55,739 bases of DNA from Natronomonas sp. CBA1123 (GCF_009741925.1 NZ_WPCC01000020.1:1-55739), one strand, 5' to 3'. Counted from the stretch's first letter, positions 21,660 through 31,043 are shown. Notes: generated from the letters alone by a model not told the origin. Made by a program: numbers and translations.

Positions 21660-22811
21660 TCAGCCTTCGAACTCGTCGAGGGTGGTGAGACTCTCGTCCC
21701 ACATGTCGTTTTCTTTGTAGTACTGTTCGGCGCCGGGGTGGACGGGGACGCCGGACGGCTGGAGCCACTCCGTCGCGAAGTCGGGACCGTGTCGCGAGAG
21801 AACCGCGCTGGCGTCGCGGACGGGTTGGACGTTCTCCATGAGGACCTTCGTGTACTCGTAGACGAGGTCGTTGGAGATTTCCGCGGGAATCGCCGTCGTG
21901 TACCCCAGCGGCAGGGCCGTGTAGGGGTCGTGGGTGATTTCCTGGTTCCACGTGTCGCCCGGCACCTCGGCGACGGAGACGGGCACGTCGGCACTGGCCG
22001 CTTGGTCCTCGGAGATGCCCCACTCGAGGACGTCGACGTCGACTTGGGCGTCGAGTTGCTGAATCCAGCCGATGAGCGTCTCCTGATTCGCGGTGTAACA
22101 CGTACACACGTCGATTCGGCCGTCGTTCATCGCGTCGGCCTGGTCGCCGAGTCCCATCGTGCTGACGTTGAAGTAGTCCTGGGAGTTCTCGATGCCGAGG
22201 ATGCTCAGACCGTCGTTGGCCGCGTCCCACGCACTGGTCCCGCGCGGACCGAAGGAGATGCTCGTCCCCTCCGGGAGGTTCTCGACACGAGTGACGCCTT
22301 CGAGGTCGGAGGCCTCCTGTCGCTTGACGAGGAAGATGTCCAGCGTCATGTAGGAGAACGTCTGACAGATGGTCTTCTCGATTGGCGGGTCTGCGTACGG
22401 GCCGGCGTCACGGTTGGCACGCCACAGCAGGTTGTGCGTCGACTGGGCGATGTCGATTTGCCCTTGGTCGATGAGGCGGTTGTTCGCCGTGGTGCCGCCC
22501 GTCGTCTGGGCGCTCATCTGGATGCGGTCGGAGTTGTCGTTCATCACCGAAGAGAACGCGACACCGGAGGCGTGGGTTGCCGTCTCCTCGCCGCTGGTAC
22601 CGATGGTCCACGACACCGACTCGCTGCCGCCACCGTTTCCGTCACCGTTGCCATTTCCGTTGCCGTTGCCGTTTCCGTTGCCGTTCCCGTTGCCGTTCCC
22701 GTTTCCGCCACCGTTGCCCGAACAGCCGGCGAGGCCGAGCATCCCCGCGGTTGCTCCGGCACCGACTGTTTTAATGACTGACCGACGGTCGAACTTGTTG
22801 CTATCTACCAT
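21660..22811 (-). CDS. TAXI family TRAP transporter substrate-binding lipoprotein
   Basis: 383 residues. A Tat signal with twin Arg at 9-10 (DRRSVIK) runs into the lipobox LAGC, so Cys30 should be lipid-linked on the outer face. A Gly-Asn repeat linker of about 30 residues follows. The domain is that of TAXI binding proteins (TIGTSGEETATHASGVAF; GQIDIAQSTHNLLWRA; LPEGTSISFGPRG). It binds a carboxylate for the permease at 23845, which is on the other strand with an SDR gene between. ATG 22811 is 28 bases after a strong TATA-like word; ATG 22817 is the alternative. Confidence 0.88.
   Translation of the reverse strand: MVDSNKFDRRSVIKTVGAGATAGMLGLAGCSGNGGGNGNGNGNGNGNGNGNGNGNGDGNGGGSESVSWTIGTSGEETATHASGVAFSSVMNDNSDRIQMSAQTTGGTTANNRLIDQGQIDIAQSTHNLLWRANRDAGPYADPPIEKTICQTFSYMTLDIFLVKRQEASDLEGVTRVENLPEGTSISFGPRGTSAWDAANDGLSILGIENSQDYFNVSTMGLGDQADAMNDGRIDVCTCYTANQETLIGWIQQLDAQVDVDVLEWGISEDQAASADVPVSVAEVPGDTWNQEITHDPYTALPLGYTTAIPAEISNDLVYEYTKVLMENVQPVRDASAVLSRHGPDFATEWLQPSGVPVHPGAEQYYKENDMWDESLTTLDEFEG
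22627..22712. repeat. Hexanucleotide-type repeat encoding the Gly-Asn linker
   Basis: A run of near-identical six-base units (ccgttg, with ccgttt and ccgttc variants, on the + strand) encodes alternating Gly and Asn after the lipobox of the binding protein. Such runs can gain or lose units during replication without breaking the frame. Confidence 0.8.
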
Positions 22812-22834
22812 GCTCATCGATACATAGAGACAGT

Positions 22835-23844: not shown

Positions 23845-25932
23845 ATGGAAACTTCCCGACCAGCCTGGCTAAACACAGATGAACCGTTGCTGACAGGCAA
23901 GTACATATTTTTAGTTCTTCTCGGGATAGCCGGAGTCGTCTATCACCTGTGGTTCGCCCGAACCTACGGCATCGAGATGCAGTTACATCTGGTGGTCCAC
24001 CTCGGATTCATGATGGTCGCCATCACTGCGATATCGTTCGACCCGCAGGTAAGTCGCGAGGACGGCTGGCTGAAAGTACTCGACAACTATCTCGTCTTGC
24101 CGGCCGAACTCGTCGGCTCCGCCGGAATCGCCATCTACCTGTGGATGAATTACGAGCGGCTGGCGATTTTCTCCATCGGGGTATACTCCGACGTCGACTT
24201 CTACCTCGGCATCCTGCTTTTGCTCCTCATCATCGACCAATCCCGCCGTGCGTTCGGGAACATCCTGCCGGCCGTCGGGGTCGTCGGTATCATCTATGCG
24301 CTCGCAGGGCCGTACTTCCCGTCGATTCTCCGCCACGGGGGCATCGACTTCCGCCGGCTCGTCACCTCACAGACCGTCGAGTTCGCGGGCGTCTACGACA
24401 CGCTCGTGCAGGTCGCCGCGACGTACATCGTGATTTTCATCGTGTTCGCGGCGTTCCTCGAAGCCTACGGCGCGATGGACTACTTCGTCAGAATCGGCGC
24501 GAAGGTCGGGAGTTACGTCAAATCCGGCATCACCCAGACGGCCGTCGTCACGAGCGTCGCCATGGGGTCGGTCAACGGGAGCGCGGCCGCAAACGCCGCG
24601 ACGACGGGCGCCTTTACGATTCCGCTGATGAAGAACCAGGGCATCAGCAAAGAAACGTCAGCGGCCATCGAATCGGTCGCTTCGAGTGGCGGCCAAATCA
24701 TGCCGCCCATCATGGGGGCGGCGGCGTTCGTCATGGCCGAAATCACGGGGACGAGCTATCTCCACATCATCACCATCGGCCTGTTGCCAGCGCTGCTGTT
24801 CTACGGCACCATCGCGGTCGCGGTCCACATGATTACGCTGAAGGAAGGCGCCGGGCTGACCAACCTCGAAGACGTCGGAAGTGGCGGTGACGAGGATGAA
24901 CCCGAAGAGGAAGCCAAGACCATCGAGGACATCTCGATGGGGACGGCGAGCGCGCCGAGCGACGTGTCGGTACTGGCGGAGGCGAGTCAGACCTCGTTCC
25001 TCGCCTCGTTCCTGAACGGCATGTATCTCTGGATACCGGTTTCCATCCTCGTGTACACGCTGGTCGTCCTGCAGTACGACCCGGTGTACGCCGGGTTCTT
25101 CTCGACGCTGTCGATTTTCCCCGTGGCGTTAGGCCAGAGTCTGTACTTCAACGACGACAAGAAGGCCGCCGTCCGGAACTTCGTCGAGAACACCATCGAG
25201 GGCTGTCGCCTCGGCATCAGCAACGCCGCGCCGATTACGATGGCCGTCGCGGTCATCGCCATCTTCGTCGGCGTGTTGAACATCACCGGCTTCACCCAAA
25301 CGCTCGCCCAGAGCCTGATTTCGCTGTCGGGCGGCGAGTTGGCCCTGCTGTTGTTCTTCGCGATGTTCGCGGCCATCCTCTTCGGGCTCGGGATGCCGAC
25401 CGTCGCGGCGTACATCGTCGCCGTGTTGCTCATCGCACCCGCGCTGGTGAACCTCGGCATCCGCCTGGAGACGGCGCACTTCTTCGTGTTCTACTTCGCC
25501 ATCCTCTCGGCGATTACGCCGCCGGTCGCCATCGCCTGTATCATCACCGCCGAAATATCGAAGGGGAACTTCTGGCGCGTCGCCGGGAAATCACTCATTC
25601 TCGGGATGCCGCTGTTCTTGCTCCCGTACGTGTTCGTCATCAACGACGCCATCATGTACTGGTCGTTCCCCGAGACGGCGATGCTGTTCCCGGTGCTGTT
25701 CCTCGGGATGGTGTGTCTGTCCATCGCGAGTATCAACTACCTCAACGGCGACCTCAGTTGGCCGTTCAGAATCGGCATCGGATTGGTCGGCGCCGGCATC
25801 CTGTTTGCCCCCCTGATTCCGGTCGCCGACCAGCTCATTCGCGCAGCGCTCATCGTCGTCGCTGTCGGGATGTTCTTCCAGCGAGGCACCTTCGACGGCC
25901 TCCGACAGTACGTCACGAGAGTGCTGCAGTAA
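23845..25932 (+). CDS. TRAP transporter permease, fused small and large subunits (TAXI type)
   Basis: 695 residues with many membrane helices (roughly 18). The fused 4TM (DctQ-like) and 12TM (DctM-like) layout is typical for TAXI systems. Signatures are GSVNGSAAANAATTGAFTIP (near 235-254), ASSGGQIMPPIMGAAAFVM and, in the second half, FGLGMPTVAAYIVAV and SAITPPVAIACI. A charged loop (DEDEPEEEAKTIED) divides the halves. It takes up an organic acid with a Na+ or H+ gradient, using the lipoprotein encoded at 21660. It probably imports the substrate for this catabolic block. Confidence 0.92.
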   Translation: METSRPAWLNTDEPLLTGKYIFLVLLGIAGVVYHLWFARTYGIEMQLHLVVHLGFMMVAITAISFDPQVSREDGWLKVLDNYLVLPAELVGSAGIAIYLWMNYERLAIFSIGVYSDVDFYLGILLLLLIIDQSRRAFGNILPAVGVVGIIYALAGPYFPSILRHGGIDFRRLVTSQTVEFAGVYDTLVQVAATYIVIFIVFAAFLEAYGAMDYFVRIGAKVGSYVKSGITQTAVVTSVAMGSVNGSAAANAATTGAFTIPLMKNQGISKETSAAIESVASSGGQIMPPIMGAAAFVMAEITGTSYLHIITIGLLPALLFYGTIAVAVHMITLKEGAGLTNLEDVGSGGDEDEPEEEAKTIEDISMGTASAPSDVSVLAEASQTSFLASFLNGMYLWIPVSILVYTLVVLQYDPVYAGFFSTLSIFPVALGQSLYFNDDKKAAVRNFVENTIEGCRLGISNAAPITMAVAVIAIFVGVLNITGFTQTLAQSLISLSGGELALLLFFAMFAAILFGLGMPTVAAYIVAVLLIAPALVNLGIRLETAHFFVFYFAILSAITPPVAIACIITAEISKGNFWRVAGKSLILGMPLFLLPYVFVINDAIMYWSFPETAMLFPVLFLGMVCLSIASINYLNGDLSWPFRIGIGLVGAGILFAPLIPVADQLIRAALIVVAVGMFFQRGTFDGLRQYVTRVLQ

Positions 25933-25997: not shown

Positions 25998-26417
25998 TTA
26001 CTTCGGACCGTTAATCGTCGTGACGGGGCAGTCGGCTTCGAGGATGACATCCTGGACGACGCTGCCGAAGACGGCCTTCCCGACCGGGCTGCGGCGGCGC
26101 CCCCCGAGGACGATTTGGTCGGCGTCCAACTCGCGGGTCGCCCGGACGAGTTCCTCGGCGGGGTCGCCGCTGCGTTGTTGGGCTTCGGCGCTGATGCCCT
26201 CGGATTCGAAAAACGAGAGCGCACTCGACGCGCTCTTGGGCATGTCGGCGTAGTCACCGATGTTGATTTTCCCGCCTTCGTCGCTTTGAACCTCCTTGGC
26301 GACGTTGATGACTACCACTTCGATTTCCTCGCTCGCACAGGGGTAGTTCGCGACGGCCTCCGCTTGAGCCATCACGCGCTCTTCGTGACCATCCGTCGCC
26401 AGTATCACTGTGAACAT
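25998..26417 (-). CDS. Universal stress protein (UspA family)
   Basis: 139 residues. The Usp fold starts with FTVILATDGHEER and has the ATP-binding G-2x-G-9x-G(S/T)-like pattern in VLGGRRRSPVGKAVFGSVVQ, ending in ADCPVTTING. Single-domain Usp proteins bind ATP and are often found beside transporters. Here it lies next to the TRAP permease (66 bases, convergent), a pairing also known for other TRAP systems such as TeaD. The start is supported by a TATA box at 26441-26450. Confidence 0.9.
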   Translation of the reverse strand: MFTVILATDGHEERVMAQAEAVANYPCASEEIEVVVINVAKEVQSDEGGKINIGDYADMPKSASSALSFFESEGISAEAQQRSGDPAEELVRATRELDADQIVLGGRRRSPVGKAVFGSVVQDVILEADCPVTTINGPK

Positions 26418-26460: not shown

Positions 26461-27459
26461 TCAGCGTTCGGGAATCGCCTTCGTCACCGACTCGGTGTCG
26501 CCGAAGCTCGGGTGGAACAGCGAGTGTCGTCCCGCGCCGCCGGTGACGGTCACGAGGACGTTCTCGGGTTTGGCCGCGAGGCCGACCGATTGGTACTCCC
26601 GGAGTCCCTGAGCGTGGGTCGGCCAGCCGCCGCCGGCCTCGTCGAACATCCCCTGGTCGCGGAGTTCCGACATCGGAATCCGGGCGTGGTCGTGGATGAA
26701 CCGCTTGACGTCGTCTTTCGACCAGCCATCGCGGGCGATAGTCGCCGCGTGCTCCGGCGACAACACGAGATGCGGTTCGCCCCGCTCGTTGAGGTACGCG
26801 AGGTTCGTCCCGACCGTCGCCATCGTGTGGGCTGCCGTCGTGAGGACGCCCGCGGCGCTGTCGGCGACGTGGTCGTTGATGTTGTGCGGCGATTCCGAAG
26901 CGACGACGGTGACGGTGCTGTCGTCTTCGTCGAAGCCGCGGTCGACGTGCAGCGGGTCCCACGGACTCTCGGCTTCGTTCTCGGCGACACATAGGCCGAA
27001 CTTGTGTGGCCCGCCGTGAGTCGCCTTGTCACCCTGTCCGGGGACGGCGCCGCCGATGTTCATGTAGACGAAGGTGAGCGCCCGCCCGATGGTCGCGTTG
27101 GGTTTCGACCCCTGGCCGTAGGCGTTGGCGCCGCCGTTGATGTCGAGGTCGTCCACTATCGGCCCGTTGACGATGACGGCGGGCCAACAGGGGTGGGTCG
27201 TCGCCAGCGCGCCGTAGAGGTTGAACTCCGGTTCCAGCGTCGCTTCGAGGGCAGCCAATACCACCGGGAAGTACGACGCCTCACACCCCGCCATCACCGC
27301 GTTCGCGGCCGCCTTCTGCACCGAGACGCTCCGGTAGGCAGGAGGGACCTCACCGACCGTCTCCGAGGGGTCGCGGTCGACCACCTCGAGGAAGTCCTCG
27401 ACGCGCTCGCGGGTGGGCTGGACGATGGGGAGTCCGTCGGGTGAGTCTATCTCGGACAT
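26461..27459 (-). CDS. CGSC-partner protein A (332 residues, unknown reaction)
   Basis: No enzyme family with a known reaction was recognised, but the gene always seems meant to work with the CGSC protein: it starts directly after that gene's stop (27460). Conserved blocks are NAVMAGCEASYFPVVLAALE (Cys59), FNLYGALATTHP, VIVNGPIVDDLDINGGANA, GQGSKPNATIGRAL, HGGPHKFGLCVAENE (Cys157), DDSTVTVV and SPHNINDH. It is soluble with no signal. Two Cys plus many His/Asn/Asp suggest a metal- or thiol-based enzyme subunit. Its paralog at 28122 has the same length and is very similar over the first 260 residues. Confidence 0.7.
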   Translation of the reverse strand: MSEIDSPDGLPIVQPTRERVEDFLEVVDRDPSETVGEVPPAYRSVSVQKAAANAVMAGCEASYFPVVLAALEATLEPEFNLYGALATTHPCWPAVIVNGPIVDDLDINGGANAYGQGSKPNATIGRALTFVYMNIGGAVPGQGDKATHGGPHKFGLCVAENEAESPWDPLHVDRGFDEDDSTVTVVASESPHNINDHVADSAAGVLTTAAHTMATVGTNLAYLNERGEPHLVLSPEHAATIARDGWSKDDVKRFIHDHARIPMSELRDQGMFDEAGGGWPTHAQGLREYQSVGLAAKPENVLVTVTGGAGRHSLFHPSFGDTESVTKAIPER

Positions 27460-28065
27460 TCAGGCCAGTTCGCTCGATGCCGCGTCGGTGTATTTGCCCT
27501 TGTACAACTCCAGCAGCTCCCCTGTGTCGTTGGTCAGCGCCTCGGTGACCGCCGTGAGGATGTCGTCGGTGACGCGCTCGCTCGCGACCGCTTTCGGGGA
27601 GAGGTCAGCGATTGGGTGTTCGATTTCGACGATTGGGAGGCCGGGAACGCCCTGGTTTTCGGCTTCGTACTGACAGAGGGTCGTGAACTCCTCGGTGCAG
27701 AAGACGACTGTCGGGACGCCGGCCTCCTCGAGTTGGAAGGCGTCGTGCATCGTCCACGACGAACAGGAGCCACAGTCGCCGTAGGCGATGAGGACCGCGT
27801 CGTATTCGCGAAGTTGCTCGTAGACAGCCTCGTCGGCCGCACTCGTCGCTACGTCCTTGTAGACGACCTCGGACACTTCGGCAGCGTGGTCGGCTTCGAG
27901 TCGCTCGCCGACCTCCCGCAGGAAGTGGTCGGCGTTCTTCTTCGTGTTCGAGAACAGCCCGATTCGGGCGTCGCCGACGGTCGACAGTCGGTCGGCCAGT
28001 ACGGTGCCTTTCGCCTCGACTTCGTCGGCGAAGGGGTTGAGAATCTCTTCGTCTTGGTCTGTCAT
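27460..28065 (-). CDS. UGSC-family protein, cysteine form (CGSC motif)
   Basis: 201 residues. The centre reads AYGDCGSCSSWTMHDA: Cys98 and Cys101 form CGSC at the place where UGSC-family selenoproteins carry Sec-Gly-Ser-Cys. Codon 98 is TGT, so Cys is encoded, not Sec. Around it are a Rossmann-like half (ARIGLFSNTKKNADHFL; AVLIAYGD) and further Cys near 123 and 131. The motif looks redox-active. The family's reaction is not known to me. It is flanked by two copies of a 332-residue partner and has its own TATA-like box at 28091-28100. A class III CoA-transferase lies beyond. Confidence 0.75.
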   Translation of the reverse strand: MTDQDEEILNPFADEVEAKGTVLADRLSTVGDARIGLFSNTKKNADHFLREVGERLEADHAAEVSEVVYKDVATSAADEAVYEQLREYDAVLIAYGDCGSCSSWTMHDAFQLEEAGVPTVVFCTEEFTTLCQYEAENQGVPGLPIVEIEHPIADLSPKAVASERVTDDILTAVTEALTNDTGELLELYKGKYTDAASSELA

Positions 28066-28090
28066 CCGTTACCTATCTCCATTCACGGGC

Positions 28091-28100
28091 AATAAGATTT
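28091..28100 (-). promoter_or_regulatory. TATA-like box for the CGSC operon
   Basis: The minus strand reads aaatcttatt, centred 30 bases before ATG 28065. It would drive CGSC plus partner A, apart from partner B. Confidence 0.5.
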
Positions 28101-28121
28101 GCCTAGCACGGGGGGCAGGGG

Positions 28122-29120
28122 CTATCGAATCCGACGCGTTATGGACCGACTGTCGCCGAACGACGACAGGAAGAGCGAGTGTCTCCCCGCACCGCCGGCG
28201 ACGAAGACGATGGGGTCGGCCGGCGAGCGACAGATGGGGACGCCGGCGTCGTCGTCGAGTTCCGATGCCGGGACGTGGCTCGGGCGGCTTCCGTCGCGGG
28301 TGTCGTACATTCCCTGGTCGCGGAGTTCCTCGTGTGGAACCCGCGCGTGGTCGTAGACGAACCGCTTGACGTCGTCCTTGGAGTAGCCGTCACGAGCGAT
28401 GGTCGCCGCGTGTTCCGGCGACAGCGCGAGACACGGTTCGGCCCGCTCGGAGAGATACGTCGTGTTCGCCCCGAGAACCGACATGGTGTCGGCGGCTGTC
28501 GTGAGGACGCCCGCGGCGCTGTCGGCGACGTGGTCGTTGATGTTGTGCGGCGCTTCGGTCGTCAGCACGGTGACGGTGCTGTCGTCTTCGTCGAAGCCGC
28601 GGTCGACGTGCAGCGGGTCCCACGGGTTTTCGGCTTCGTTCTCGGCGACACACAGCCCGAACTTGTGCGGTCCACCGTGAGTCGCCTTGTCCGTCGGCCC
28701 CGGTGTCGCGCCGGCGACGTTCATGTAGACGAAGGTGAGCGCCCGCCCGATGGTCGCGTTCGGTTTCGACCCCTGACCGAAGGCGTTGGCACCGCCGTTG
28801 ATGTCGAGGTCGTCCACTATCGGCCCGTTGACGACCACCATCGGCCAGTGTGGCTCCGTCGTCGCGAGCGTCCCGTAGAGGTTGAACTCGGGGTCCAGCG
28901 TCGCTTCGAGGGCGGCCAACACCACCGGGAAGTACGACGCCTCACACCCGGCCATCACCGCGTTCGCCGCGAGCGTCTCCATCGTCGCCGACCGCTCGCT
29001 CAACGGAAACGGGCCGAGGCGGTCCTCGCCTGCGACATCGGCGGCGTCGAGGAAGCGCTCGACGCGCTCGCGCGTGGGGTCGACGACGGGCAATCCGTCC
29101 GGAGAAGAAACGGTAGCCAT
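28122..29120 (-). CDS. CGSC-partner protein B (332 residues, paralog of A)
   Basis: Same length and blocks as the protein at 26461: NAVMAGCEASYF with Cys59, INGGANAFGQGSKPN, HGGPHKFGLCVAENE, APHNINDHVADSAAG and YSKDDVKRFVYDHAR. The first 260 residues match closely; the last 60 differ. The DNA also has identical runs of 55 and 58 bases, which points to recent duplication or gene conversion. ATG 29120 was chosen since it begins the shared SPDGLP segment; the open frame to 29276 runs into the divergent gene. Function unknown; possibly an alternative partner for the CGSC protein. Confidence 0.7.
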   Translation of the reverse strand: MATVSSPDGLPVVDPTRERVERFLDAADVAGEDRLGPFPLSERSATMETLAANAVMAGCEASYFPVVLAALEATLDPEFNLYGTLATTEPHWPMVVVNGPIVDDLDINGGANAFGQGSKPNATIGRALTFVYMNVAGATPGPTDKATHGGPHKFGLCVAENEAENPWDPLHVDRGFDEDDSTVTVLTTEAPHNINDHVADSAAGVLTTAADTMSVLGANTTYLSERAEPCLALSPEHAATIARDGYSKDDVKRFVYDHARVPHEELRDQGMYDTRDGSRPSHVPASELDDDAGVPICRSPADPIVFVAGGAGRHSLFLSSFGDSRSITRRIR

Positions 29121-29220: not shown

Positions 29221-30408
29221 ATGAGCGACCAGTTGCTGGACGGCATCGACGTAGTCGACCTCGGGCAGATATACAACGGCCCCTACTGCTCTCTGTTGCT
29301 CTCCTATATGGGTGCGGACGTCACGAAAATCGAACCGCCACACGGCGAACCGCTTCGGGCCCGCGTCGACGACGGCGAGGCCCCGGAGTTCGTGATGCTC
29401 AACTCCAACAAGGAGGGAATGACACTCAACCTCAAGACCGAGGAGGGAAAGGAAATCTTCGAGGAACTCATCGAGGACGCCGATATCCTCGTCGAGAACT
29501 TCTCGGTCGGAGCGATGGAGCGCCTCGGCCTCGGCTACGAGGAACTCTCGGAGATAAACCCGGAACTCATCTACGCCCACAGCAGCGGCTTCGGCGAGGA
29601 GGGCCCCTACAACGAGTACCCCGCGATGGACCTCACGATTCAGGCCATCAGCGGCGTGATGGACGTGACAGGCTTCCCGGACGGCCCGCCGACGAAAGCC
29701 GGCATCGCCGTCGGCGACTTCATGGGCGGCATCCACCTGCTCGCCGGCATCCTCGGTGCGCTGTACGAACGGGAGTTGACCGGCGAGGGCCAGTTCGTCG
29801 AGGTGAGCATGCACGACTCGGTGTTCCCGACGCTGATGTCGCCGATGGCGGCGCACTTCAACGACGACGACGTGCCGCCGCGGACCGGCAACCGCCACAG
29901 CGGTCTCGCCCAAAGCCCCTACAACGTCTACGAAACATCCGACGGCTACATCGCCATCTTCGGCGTCACCGACCAGCACTGGCACTCGCTTTTGGAGGTC
30001 ATCGGCCGGGAGGATTTGAAGGGCGACCCCCGCTTCGAGAGCAACGTCAAACGGTCGAACCACCTCGACGCAGTCGACGAACTGGTCGAGGAGTGGACCA
30101 TCGAGCGAAAGCGCGACGACATCGAGGAAATCCTGCTCGACGCGGGCGTCCCCTGTGGCCCGGTCAAGGAACTCGACGAGGTCGCCGACGACCCCCACCT
30201 CAAGGAGCGACAGATGATAAACGAAATCGACCACCCCGACTACGGCGAGATATCGGTGCCCGGCATCCCGATTCGGTTCTCGGGGTCGGAGCTCCCCGAC
30301 ATCGAACCATCGCCGACGAAGGGACGGGACACCCGGAAGGTGATGTGCGAACGACTCGGCTACTCCGAGGCGGAGTACGAGGAACTGAAAGAGAAGGGCG
30401 TCTTCTAG
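29221..30408 (+). CDS. Class III CoA-transferase (CaiB/BaiF family)
   Basis: 395 residues. Marks are LLDGIDVVDLGQIYNGPYCS at the start, GADVTKIEPP, a VENFSVGAMERLGLGY segment, and the nucleophile Asp137 in YPAMDLTIQAISG, the position of the formyl-CoA transferase Asp. It moves CoA between carboxylic acids (donor often succinyl-CoA) with a covalent Asp thioester. In haloarchaea a member acts as succinyl-CoA:mesaconate CoA-transferase, so a similar acid is possible here. It is divergent from CGSC-partner B and its stop overlaps that of the RraA-like gene by four bases. Confidence 0.9.
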   Translation: MSDQLLDGIDVVDLGQIYNGPYCSLLLSYMGADVTKIEPPHGEPLRARVDDGEAPEFVMLNSNKEGMTLNLKTEEGKEIFEELIEDADILVENFSVGAMERLGLGYEELSEINPELIYAHSSGFGEEGPYNEYPAMDLTIQAISGVMDVTGFPDGPPTKAGIAVGDFMGGIHLLAGILGALYERELTGEGQFVEVSMHDSVFPTLMSPMAAHFNDDDVPPRTGNRHSGLAQSPYNVYETSDGYIAIFGVTDQHWHSLLEVIGREDLKGDPRFESNVKRSNHLDAVDELVEEWTIERKRDDIEEILLDAGVPCGPVKELDEVADDPHLKERQMINEIDHPDYGEISVPGIPIRFSGSELPDIEPSPTKGRDTRKVMCERLGYSEAEYEELKEKGVF

Positions 30409-31043
30409 AACTCGTGGTCGTCGCCCTGGAGGTCGGCGACCGTCGCACCTGTTTCGATTTTTCGCTCGACGAGTAGCTCCTCGCGGAGCGTCGCCTCGGC
30501 GGTTTCGGCGACCTCAGCGGCTTTCTCGGCGGGCACGACGACGACGCCCGTCGCGTCGGCGACGACGAGGTCGTCGGGATTGACCGTGACGCCGTCGATT
30601 TTCAGCGGTTCGCCGACCGCCTCGACGGTGAGGCGGCGCTGGCCGGATTTCGGCGTCGGCTGGCGGGCAAACACCGGGAACGACCCCTCACGAATCTCCG
30701 GGATGTCGCGGTAGCCGCCGTCGATGACCATGCCGGCGACGCCGGCGTTCTCGGCCAGTCGGGAGGCGTTGCCACCCCAACAGGAGATATCGGGGCCGAC
30801 GCCGTCGATGACGAGCACGCGGTCCTCGCGGAGTTCGTTCAACATCGCGTAGGGGAAGTTCGTCCGCTCGCCGGGGTCGTCGACCAACTCGAAGCGCATC
30901 GTGTGGGCGCGGCCGACCGTCGTCTGGGCGGGCGCCGCCGGCGGCAGGCCGGTGATGACGCCGTCGATGTCGTGTTTGTCCAAAGCGTCGGAGACGATGC
31001 TGGTGTCGAACATGCTGTACACGTCCGTGATACTCGATGCCAT
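30405..31043 (-). CDS. RraA-like aldolase/decarboxylase family protein
   Basis: 212 residues of the RraA/HMG-aldolase fold. The metal and substrate motif is GVAGMVIDGGYRDIPEIR near residue 98 (Asp and the Arg-Asp pair), with SCWGGNASRLAENAG before it. Members split 4-hydroxy-4-methyl-2-oxoglutarate or decarboxylate oxaloacetate; others only bind RNase E, which haloarchaea lack. Aldolase or decarboxylase activity on a 2-oxo acid is therefore the better guess. It is convergent with the CoA-transferase (CTAG shared by both stops) and has a TATA-like box at 31067-31077. Confidence 0.83.
   Translation of the reverse strand: MASSITDVYSMFDTSIVSDALDKHDIDGVITGLPPAAPAQTTVGRAHTMRFELVDDPGERTNFPYAMLNELREDRVLVIDGVGPDISCWGGNASRLAENAGVAGMVIDGGYRDIPEIREGSFPVFARQPTPKSGQRRLTVEAVGEPLKIDGVTVNPDDLVVADATGVVVVPAEKAAEVAETAEATLREELLVERKIETGATVADLQGDDHEF

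Follow-up and report, generated by a model that had tools for sequence, protein, structure and literature searches.

The locus described here is most suitably classed as the Cys variant of a probable UGSC/partner reductase, an observation more general than one genome. On a haloarchaeal contig of Natronomonas sp. CBA1123, of which a stretch of 55,739 nucleotides (the window) was analyzed, three co-directional genes on the minus strand are arranged in the order B, U, A; all three reading frames put forward in the original prediction are present on that strand. Partner B (28122..29120, 332 amino acids, ATG at 29120) is the first gene of the unit and is followed by U (27460..28065), which encodes a 201-amino-acid UGSC-family protein, and by partner A (26461..27459, 332 amino acids), which belongs to an unnamed family. 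We favor, at a probability of roughly 0.55, a reading in which U, A, and B would make up one reductase complex acting on an organic acid, with the dithiol of U as the catalytic group, the partner as the substrate pocket, and thioredoxin reductase and NAD(P)H as the feed.

The assignment of U as a UGSC-family protein with a CGSC motif held against both curated models, with 161.8 bits (E 2.3e-47) for Pfam PF24696, where the cut-off is 25, and 169.8 bits (E 3.6e-50) for NCBIfam NF041046, where it is 125. Residues 96 to 104 read GDCGSCSSW and contain the family motif [U/C]GSC as Cys98-Gly-Ser-Cys101 (27763..27774, minus strand), the place of TGA and selenocysteine (Sec) in most bacterial relatives. 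The first motif position of Natronomonas U is encoded by TGT and is thus Cys, not Sec, which does not disqualify the protein, since homologues with Cys count as members and the NCBIfam model bears the name "(seleno)protein". Of 109 distinct UGSC sequences encoded close to a partner, 79 have TGA at codon 98, 26 a Cys codon, 2 a Met codon, 1 a Gly codon, and a single one, that of Blastococcus, TAG. TAG-coded UGSC selenoproteins are already known in this actinobacterial family (PMC5330540), so the Blastococcus codon independently supports Sec at this position. The UGSC family was described in 2008 from ocean metagenomes and counts among the most abundant selenoproteins of aquatic metagenomes (PMC2398784). 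Natronomonas U shares with it a score above both curated cut-offs and the UxxC/CxxC motif, but has Cys for Sec and is encoded as a separate gene with a partner on either side.

At the boundary between U and A, the TGA stop of U (27460-27462) and the in-frame ATG start of A together occupy positions 27457..27462 on the minus strand, so that U and A constitute a single reading frame interrupted by one TGA. The same TGA/ATG junction is found in Halalkalicoccus jeotgali (locus L030) and Natronomonas gomsonensis (L034). A reading of this TGA as selenocysteine was considered and rejected: no tRNA-Sec above the Rfam threshold was found in the Natronomonas genome (best score 37.4 bits, threshold 47), and we therefore take the codon to be a real stop. 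By its sequence, the U-A pair looks like a fused gene split by a single codon; genuine fusions are found in other loci. In about 20 related loci, the Sec-coded UGSC gene and the partner gene form one open reading frame when the Sec codon is read through. One locus from Chloroflexi (L083:7260-12666) carries three such fusion genes in tandem.

Pairing of the UGSC protein with its partner is near-obligate. In 289 alphaproteobacterial genomes, the two families occur in the identical 28 genomes, and in 292 genomes of Halobacteria the partner was found in 16 and UGSC in 15, with an overlap of 15; the 16th partner-bearing genome showed a short, weak match only. Hypergeometric probabilities were approximately 1e-39 for Alphaproteobacteria and 3e-24 for Halobacteria, upper-end figures in that they ignore kinship, and the counts exclude chance as an explanation. 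The prediction that the two families would co-occur in other genomes was thus borne out (28/28 in Alphaproteobacteria and 15/15 of the UGSC-bearing Halobacteria). The two genes are usually adjacent, with 68 of 74 alphaproteobacterial UGSC genes located within 400 bp of a partner gene. At least 579 relatives came out of a pattern scan over bacterial and archaeal genomes, and 80 loci were kept; UGSC was present in 75 of the 80, usually just upstream of the partner and on the same strand. Among the five loci lacking UGSC, L037 and L081 end at a contig edge. No UGSC gene was found within the stretch examined for loci L050, L073, L111, and L169, the last from Haladaptatus.

The partner constitutes a large, multi-phylum family lacking a Pfam or NCBIfam entry and a solved relative. 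A and B are 71% identical, and neither they nor 66 relatives drawn from many phyla matched any Pfam or NCBIfam model; searches of PDB sequences with A, U, their profiles, and GrdE likewise found no relatives. Across 139 distinct partner sequences, Glu160, Arg126, and Gly99 were present in all 139, Asn121 in 138, and Asp8 in 137. Of the two cysteines that had been proposed as conserved, Cys59 deserved the description (136/139), while Cys157 was weaker, occurring in 106 of 139 sequences (76%). Cys59 is encoded at 27283..27285 in A and, as placed by alignment and sequence, at 28944..28946 in B (both minus strand), and the preceding Gly58 is among the strictest residues of the family together with it.

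Structures were predicted with AlphaFold using alignments of natural relatives. Partner A alone gave a pLDDT of 93.6 and a pTM of 0.93, and U and A modeled as a single joined chain, with the intervening TGA read as Cys, gave a pLDDT of 91.8 and a pTM of 0.92, with poor values only at linker residues 196-203. The U-A chain is therefore confidently predicted to fold as one packed unit. Together with the co-occurrence and the natural fusions, this packed model supports the proposal that the two proteins constitute a redox unit. The 2008 description proposed a Trx-like fold for UGSC (PMC2398784). In our model, in contrast, strands and helices are predicted to alternate in U, with CGSC lying where a helix begins, and the weak matches that the U-A model gave in the PDB were mostly to Rossmann/flavodoxin-like proteins, not to the thioredoxin fold. 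For A itself, no PDB fold matched at E ≤ 0.001; the best was class I fumarate hydratase (Foldseek E 1.3e-3, probability 0.75, TM 0.30), a weak resemblance over most of the partner chain that marks a fold analogue only. Class I fumarate hydratase has three cluster-binding cysteines, whereas the partner has one near-invariant Cys. An identity of the partner as a class I fumarase was rejected, given an HHalign probability of 0.2% against PF05681 and the weak fold score. Homology of the partner to GrdE or PrdA was likewise rejected by profile comparison (0.1% against the GrdE profile).

U, in turn, is related to the Sec region of GrdB, the protein B of glycine/betaine reductase. When GrdB was read through its Sec codon, HHalign aligned it with the UGSC profile at a probability of 91% (E 9e-7), placing CGSC on the UGT(C) motif of GrdB; the alignment takes in the helix and, after it, the "GIP" strand. 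With these GrdB sequences ending at the Sec TGA, the probability was 0.2%. PrdB-like UPxC proteins aligned in the same register, more weakly than GrdB (34%); their motif is UPxC, which is why a Sec-motif pattern scan of this set found none. Only the Sec end of GrdB aligns with U; PF07355, the full-length GRDB domain, did not match U at E ≤ 0.1. Many UGSC/partner genomes also encode single-domain PrdB-like UPxC selenoproteins (L137-L145), which matched the C-terminal half of GrdB with an HHalign probability of 99.5%.

Glycine, sarcosine, and betaine reductase (GrdB with GrdE) and D-proline reductase (PrdB with PrdA) are two-component enzymes, as the UGSC/partner pair would be, and the UxxC domain is homologous to the Sec domain of GrdB and in register with it. 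U nevertheless lacks the other GrdB domains, and the partner has no profile similarity to GrdE. The Grd and Prd enzymes are known from amino-acid-fermenting Clostridia, whereas the UGSC/partner pair is found in Halobacteria, proteobacteria, and SAR202-type Chloroflexi. Our best reading is that U and its partner would carry out GrdB-like chemistry with a non-homologous partner. More tentatively, and at odds short of even, the pair may join the glycine/betaine and D-proline reductases as a third class of enzymes that depend on Sec or Cys to cleave bonds reductively, one with a partner fold unseen in the PDB that would act on dissolved organic acids in marine and soil bacteria and haloarchaea. 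PrdA and GrdE are processed to yield a pyruvoyl group, and in a further variant of the analogy Gly58-Cys59 of the partner might itself be processed in this way.

In glycine reductase, GrdA and GrdB receive electrons that thioredoxin reductase and thioredoxin relay from NADPH (PMC3091704), and a supply of this kind may also serve the UGSC/partner proteins. By raw counts, genes for CxxC thioredoxin-reductase-like flavoproteins adjoin UGSC/partner genes in loci L028, L033, L063, L074, L079, L080, L092, L166, L167, and L173, and such neighbors also occur in 8 of 14 haloarchaeal regions (again a raw count). The organisms include Roseovarius, Variovorax, Haloterrigena (flavoprotein at L167:9065-9976), and Arthrobacter, where the reductase of L033 is accompanied by thioredoxin. 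In the 80-locus set, each of the six thioredoxin reductases is within 171 bp of UGSC, and in Blastococcus sp. CT_GayMR19 (L078:8460-9900) thioredoxin reductase and UGSC share one open reading frame, in which the Sec codon is TAG and behind which two partner genes follow. This fusion was found undescribed, while TAG-coded Sec is known for that bacterial family. No thioredoxin reductase gene was found in the window or beside the closest relatives of the Natronomonas copy; it is in other branches of the family that the association is seen. The best reading of these gene arrangements is that the UGSC/partner unit would be fed by a thioredoxin-reductase-type flavoprotein, the direction of electron flow being presumed.

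One subfamily counts against a redox reading. In its members from Sporomusa, Vibrio, and L087, the UGSC part of the fusion has lost its cysteines, and in Sporomusa and L087, both of which were tabulated, the partner has kept Cys59. The retention of a partner fused to a cysteine-less U argues that the partner is usable, and has a role of its own, when the thiol pair of U is gone; that role is perhaps substrate activation. The fusions of Sporomusa termitida (L029:8281-10005) and Vibrio europaeus (L171:7323-9008) read GDMGTS and ADMGTS, respectively, at the motif, and both adjoin aconitase X and DUF126 genes. An unlikely alternative, though the best placed of those we weighed, would make the complex a redox-neutral lyase, hydratase, or isomerase of hydroxy- or dicarboxylates, whose cysteines are structural, regulatory, or acid/base groups merely kept reduced by the reductase. 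The aconitase X neighbors and the Foldseek resemblance of the partner to fumarate hydratase speak for it, but against it stand the selenocysteine at position 98 in 79 of 109 relatives, the thioredoxin reductase that shares the UGSC reading frame in one case, and the profile comparison of the partner with class I fumarase (0.2%).

The presence of two partners beside one U had originally been read as allowing two substrates, with the single CGSC subunit serving either A or B. Consistent with that view, A and B both keep all invariant residues, and in a tree built by a quick method they fall into separate supported clades, each holding the copies of the window, N. gomsonensis, and H. jeotgali. 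Yet a further haloarchaeal group has a partner pair of its own, and an old pair, P1/P2, is common to Alphaproteobacteria and Blastococcus; by these sequence relationships, two-partner loci arose at least three times. Moreover, Cys59 has been lost from P2 in two members, the second partners of L076 and L079. Repeated paired duplication beside a single U fits better with a partner that was formerly a homodimer and became a heterodimer after duplication. We therefore consider a heteromer of A and B the more likely arrangement and the assignment of a separate substrate to each partner doubtful.

For the reductase complex that we favor, the following course of reaction is proposed. U would carry the catalytic dithiol, Cys98 and Cys101, in a GrdB/PrdB-type UxxC domain, and the partner would supply a substrate pocket lined by the invariant residues Asp8, Cys59, Asn121, Arg126, and Glu160. 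The partner would act as a dimer, which in Natronomonas would be the A-B heteromer. A carboxylate or its CoA ester, imported by the TRAP system, would bind the partner and be attacked by the Cys98 thiolate (selenolate in most relatives), so that the substrate is reduced or reductively cleaved. Cys101 would then resolve the intermediate to a 98-101 disulfide (a disulfide of Cys98 with Cys59 being the alternative), and a thioredoxin-reductase-type flavoprotein with NAD(P)H would restore the dithiol of U. We infer the A-B heteromer, the substrate class, the type of reaction, and the direction of electron flow.

Genes flanking the unit are those of uptake and CoA-ester metabolism. A class III CoA-transferase of the CaiB/BaiF type (29221..30408, plus strand; PF02515, E 8.8e-124) is divergent from B and is followed by an RraA-like/HMG-aldolase-type protein (30405..31043, minus strand; PF03737, E 7e-34). 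On the other side lie a universal stress protein gene (25998..26417, minus strand; PF00582, E 1.2e-17), co-directional and just downstream of A, an order that is the same in H. jeotgali (L030), a TRAP transporter fused permease (23845..25932, plus strand; TIGR02123, E 5.6e-140), and a TAXI-type TRAP solute-binding protein (21660..22817, minus strand; TIGR02122, E 2.2e-26). Further genes of the window encode aldehyde dehydrogenases, SDRs, an acyl-CoA dehydrogenase, an enoyl-CoA hydratase, a ThDP enzyme, and a MaoC-type hydratase. Among the 80 related loci, TctC binding proteins occur in 25 and CaiB-like genes in 19. The combination of transport and CoA-ester neighbors supports a place in organic-acid catabolism, and the carboxylate or CoA-ester setting suggested for the locus is plausible in view of the CoA-transferase, the TRAP/TAXI genes, and TctC. 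A peroxidase or detoxification enzyme is improbable: the universal stress protein gene after A, and a peroxidase activity of GrdB named in the title of a reference listed in PMC3091704, are set against catabolic neighbors and against the strongly conserved polar core of the partner, which includes an invariant Arg, as expected for a specific anionic substrate.

Part of this system has been seen before. The 2008 paper (PMC2398784) already reported a fusion, UGSC/Unknown_1, in which UGSC is joined to a domain without a name, and Unknown_1 is probably this partner family. The view of the locus as an undescribed system thus holds in part: the UGSC family and its fusion are known, while the partner is a family that had no name, and the thioredoxin reductase link, the relation to GrdB, and the obligate pairing were found undescribed. 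With UGSC tied to one near-obligate partner, thioredoxin reductase, and GrdB, its function becomes testable, and the haloarchaeal Cys form is convenient for expression, as it requires no Sec insertion.

The substrate is probably not the same in every branch of the family. Phosphosulfolactate synthase genes adjoin the UGSC/partner genes in Arthrobacter (L033:6641-10785) and Natrinema (L168:4808-8972), and in Natrinema zhouii a gene of the adenylosuccinate lyase family also lies beside them; synthase and lyase neighbors of this kind may point to sulfonate or conjugate-addition chemistry in parts of the family. Much of the gene content of the window is common to plasmid 2 of H. jeotgali and to N. 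gomsonensis, and a catabolic island at 14932-36466 is largely syntenic with both. The partner was absent from six sampled congeners, which, with the synteny of the island, suggests horizontal or plasmid transfer. On plasmid pFER4 of Paracoccus ferrooxidans (L031:1-15098), Sec-coded UGSC and partner genes lie between selA and selB, in a segment that also carries TusA, DsrE, and cysteine desulfurase genes and is possibly a mobile selenocysteine cassette.
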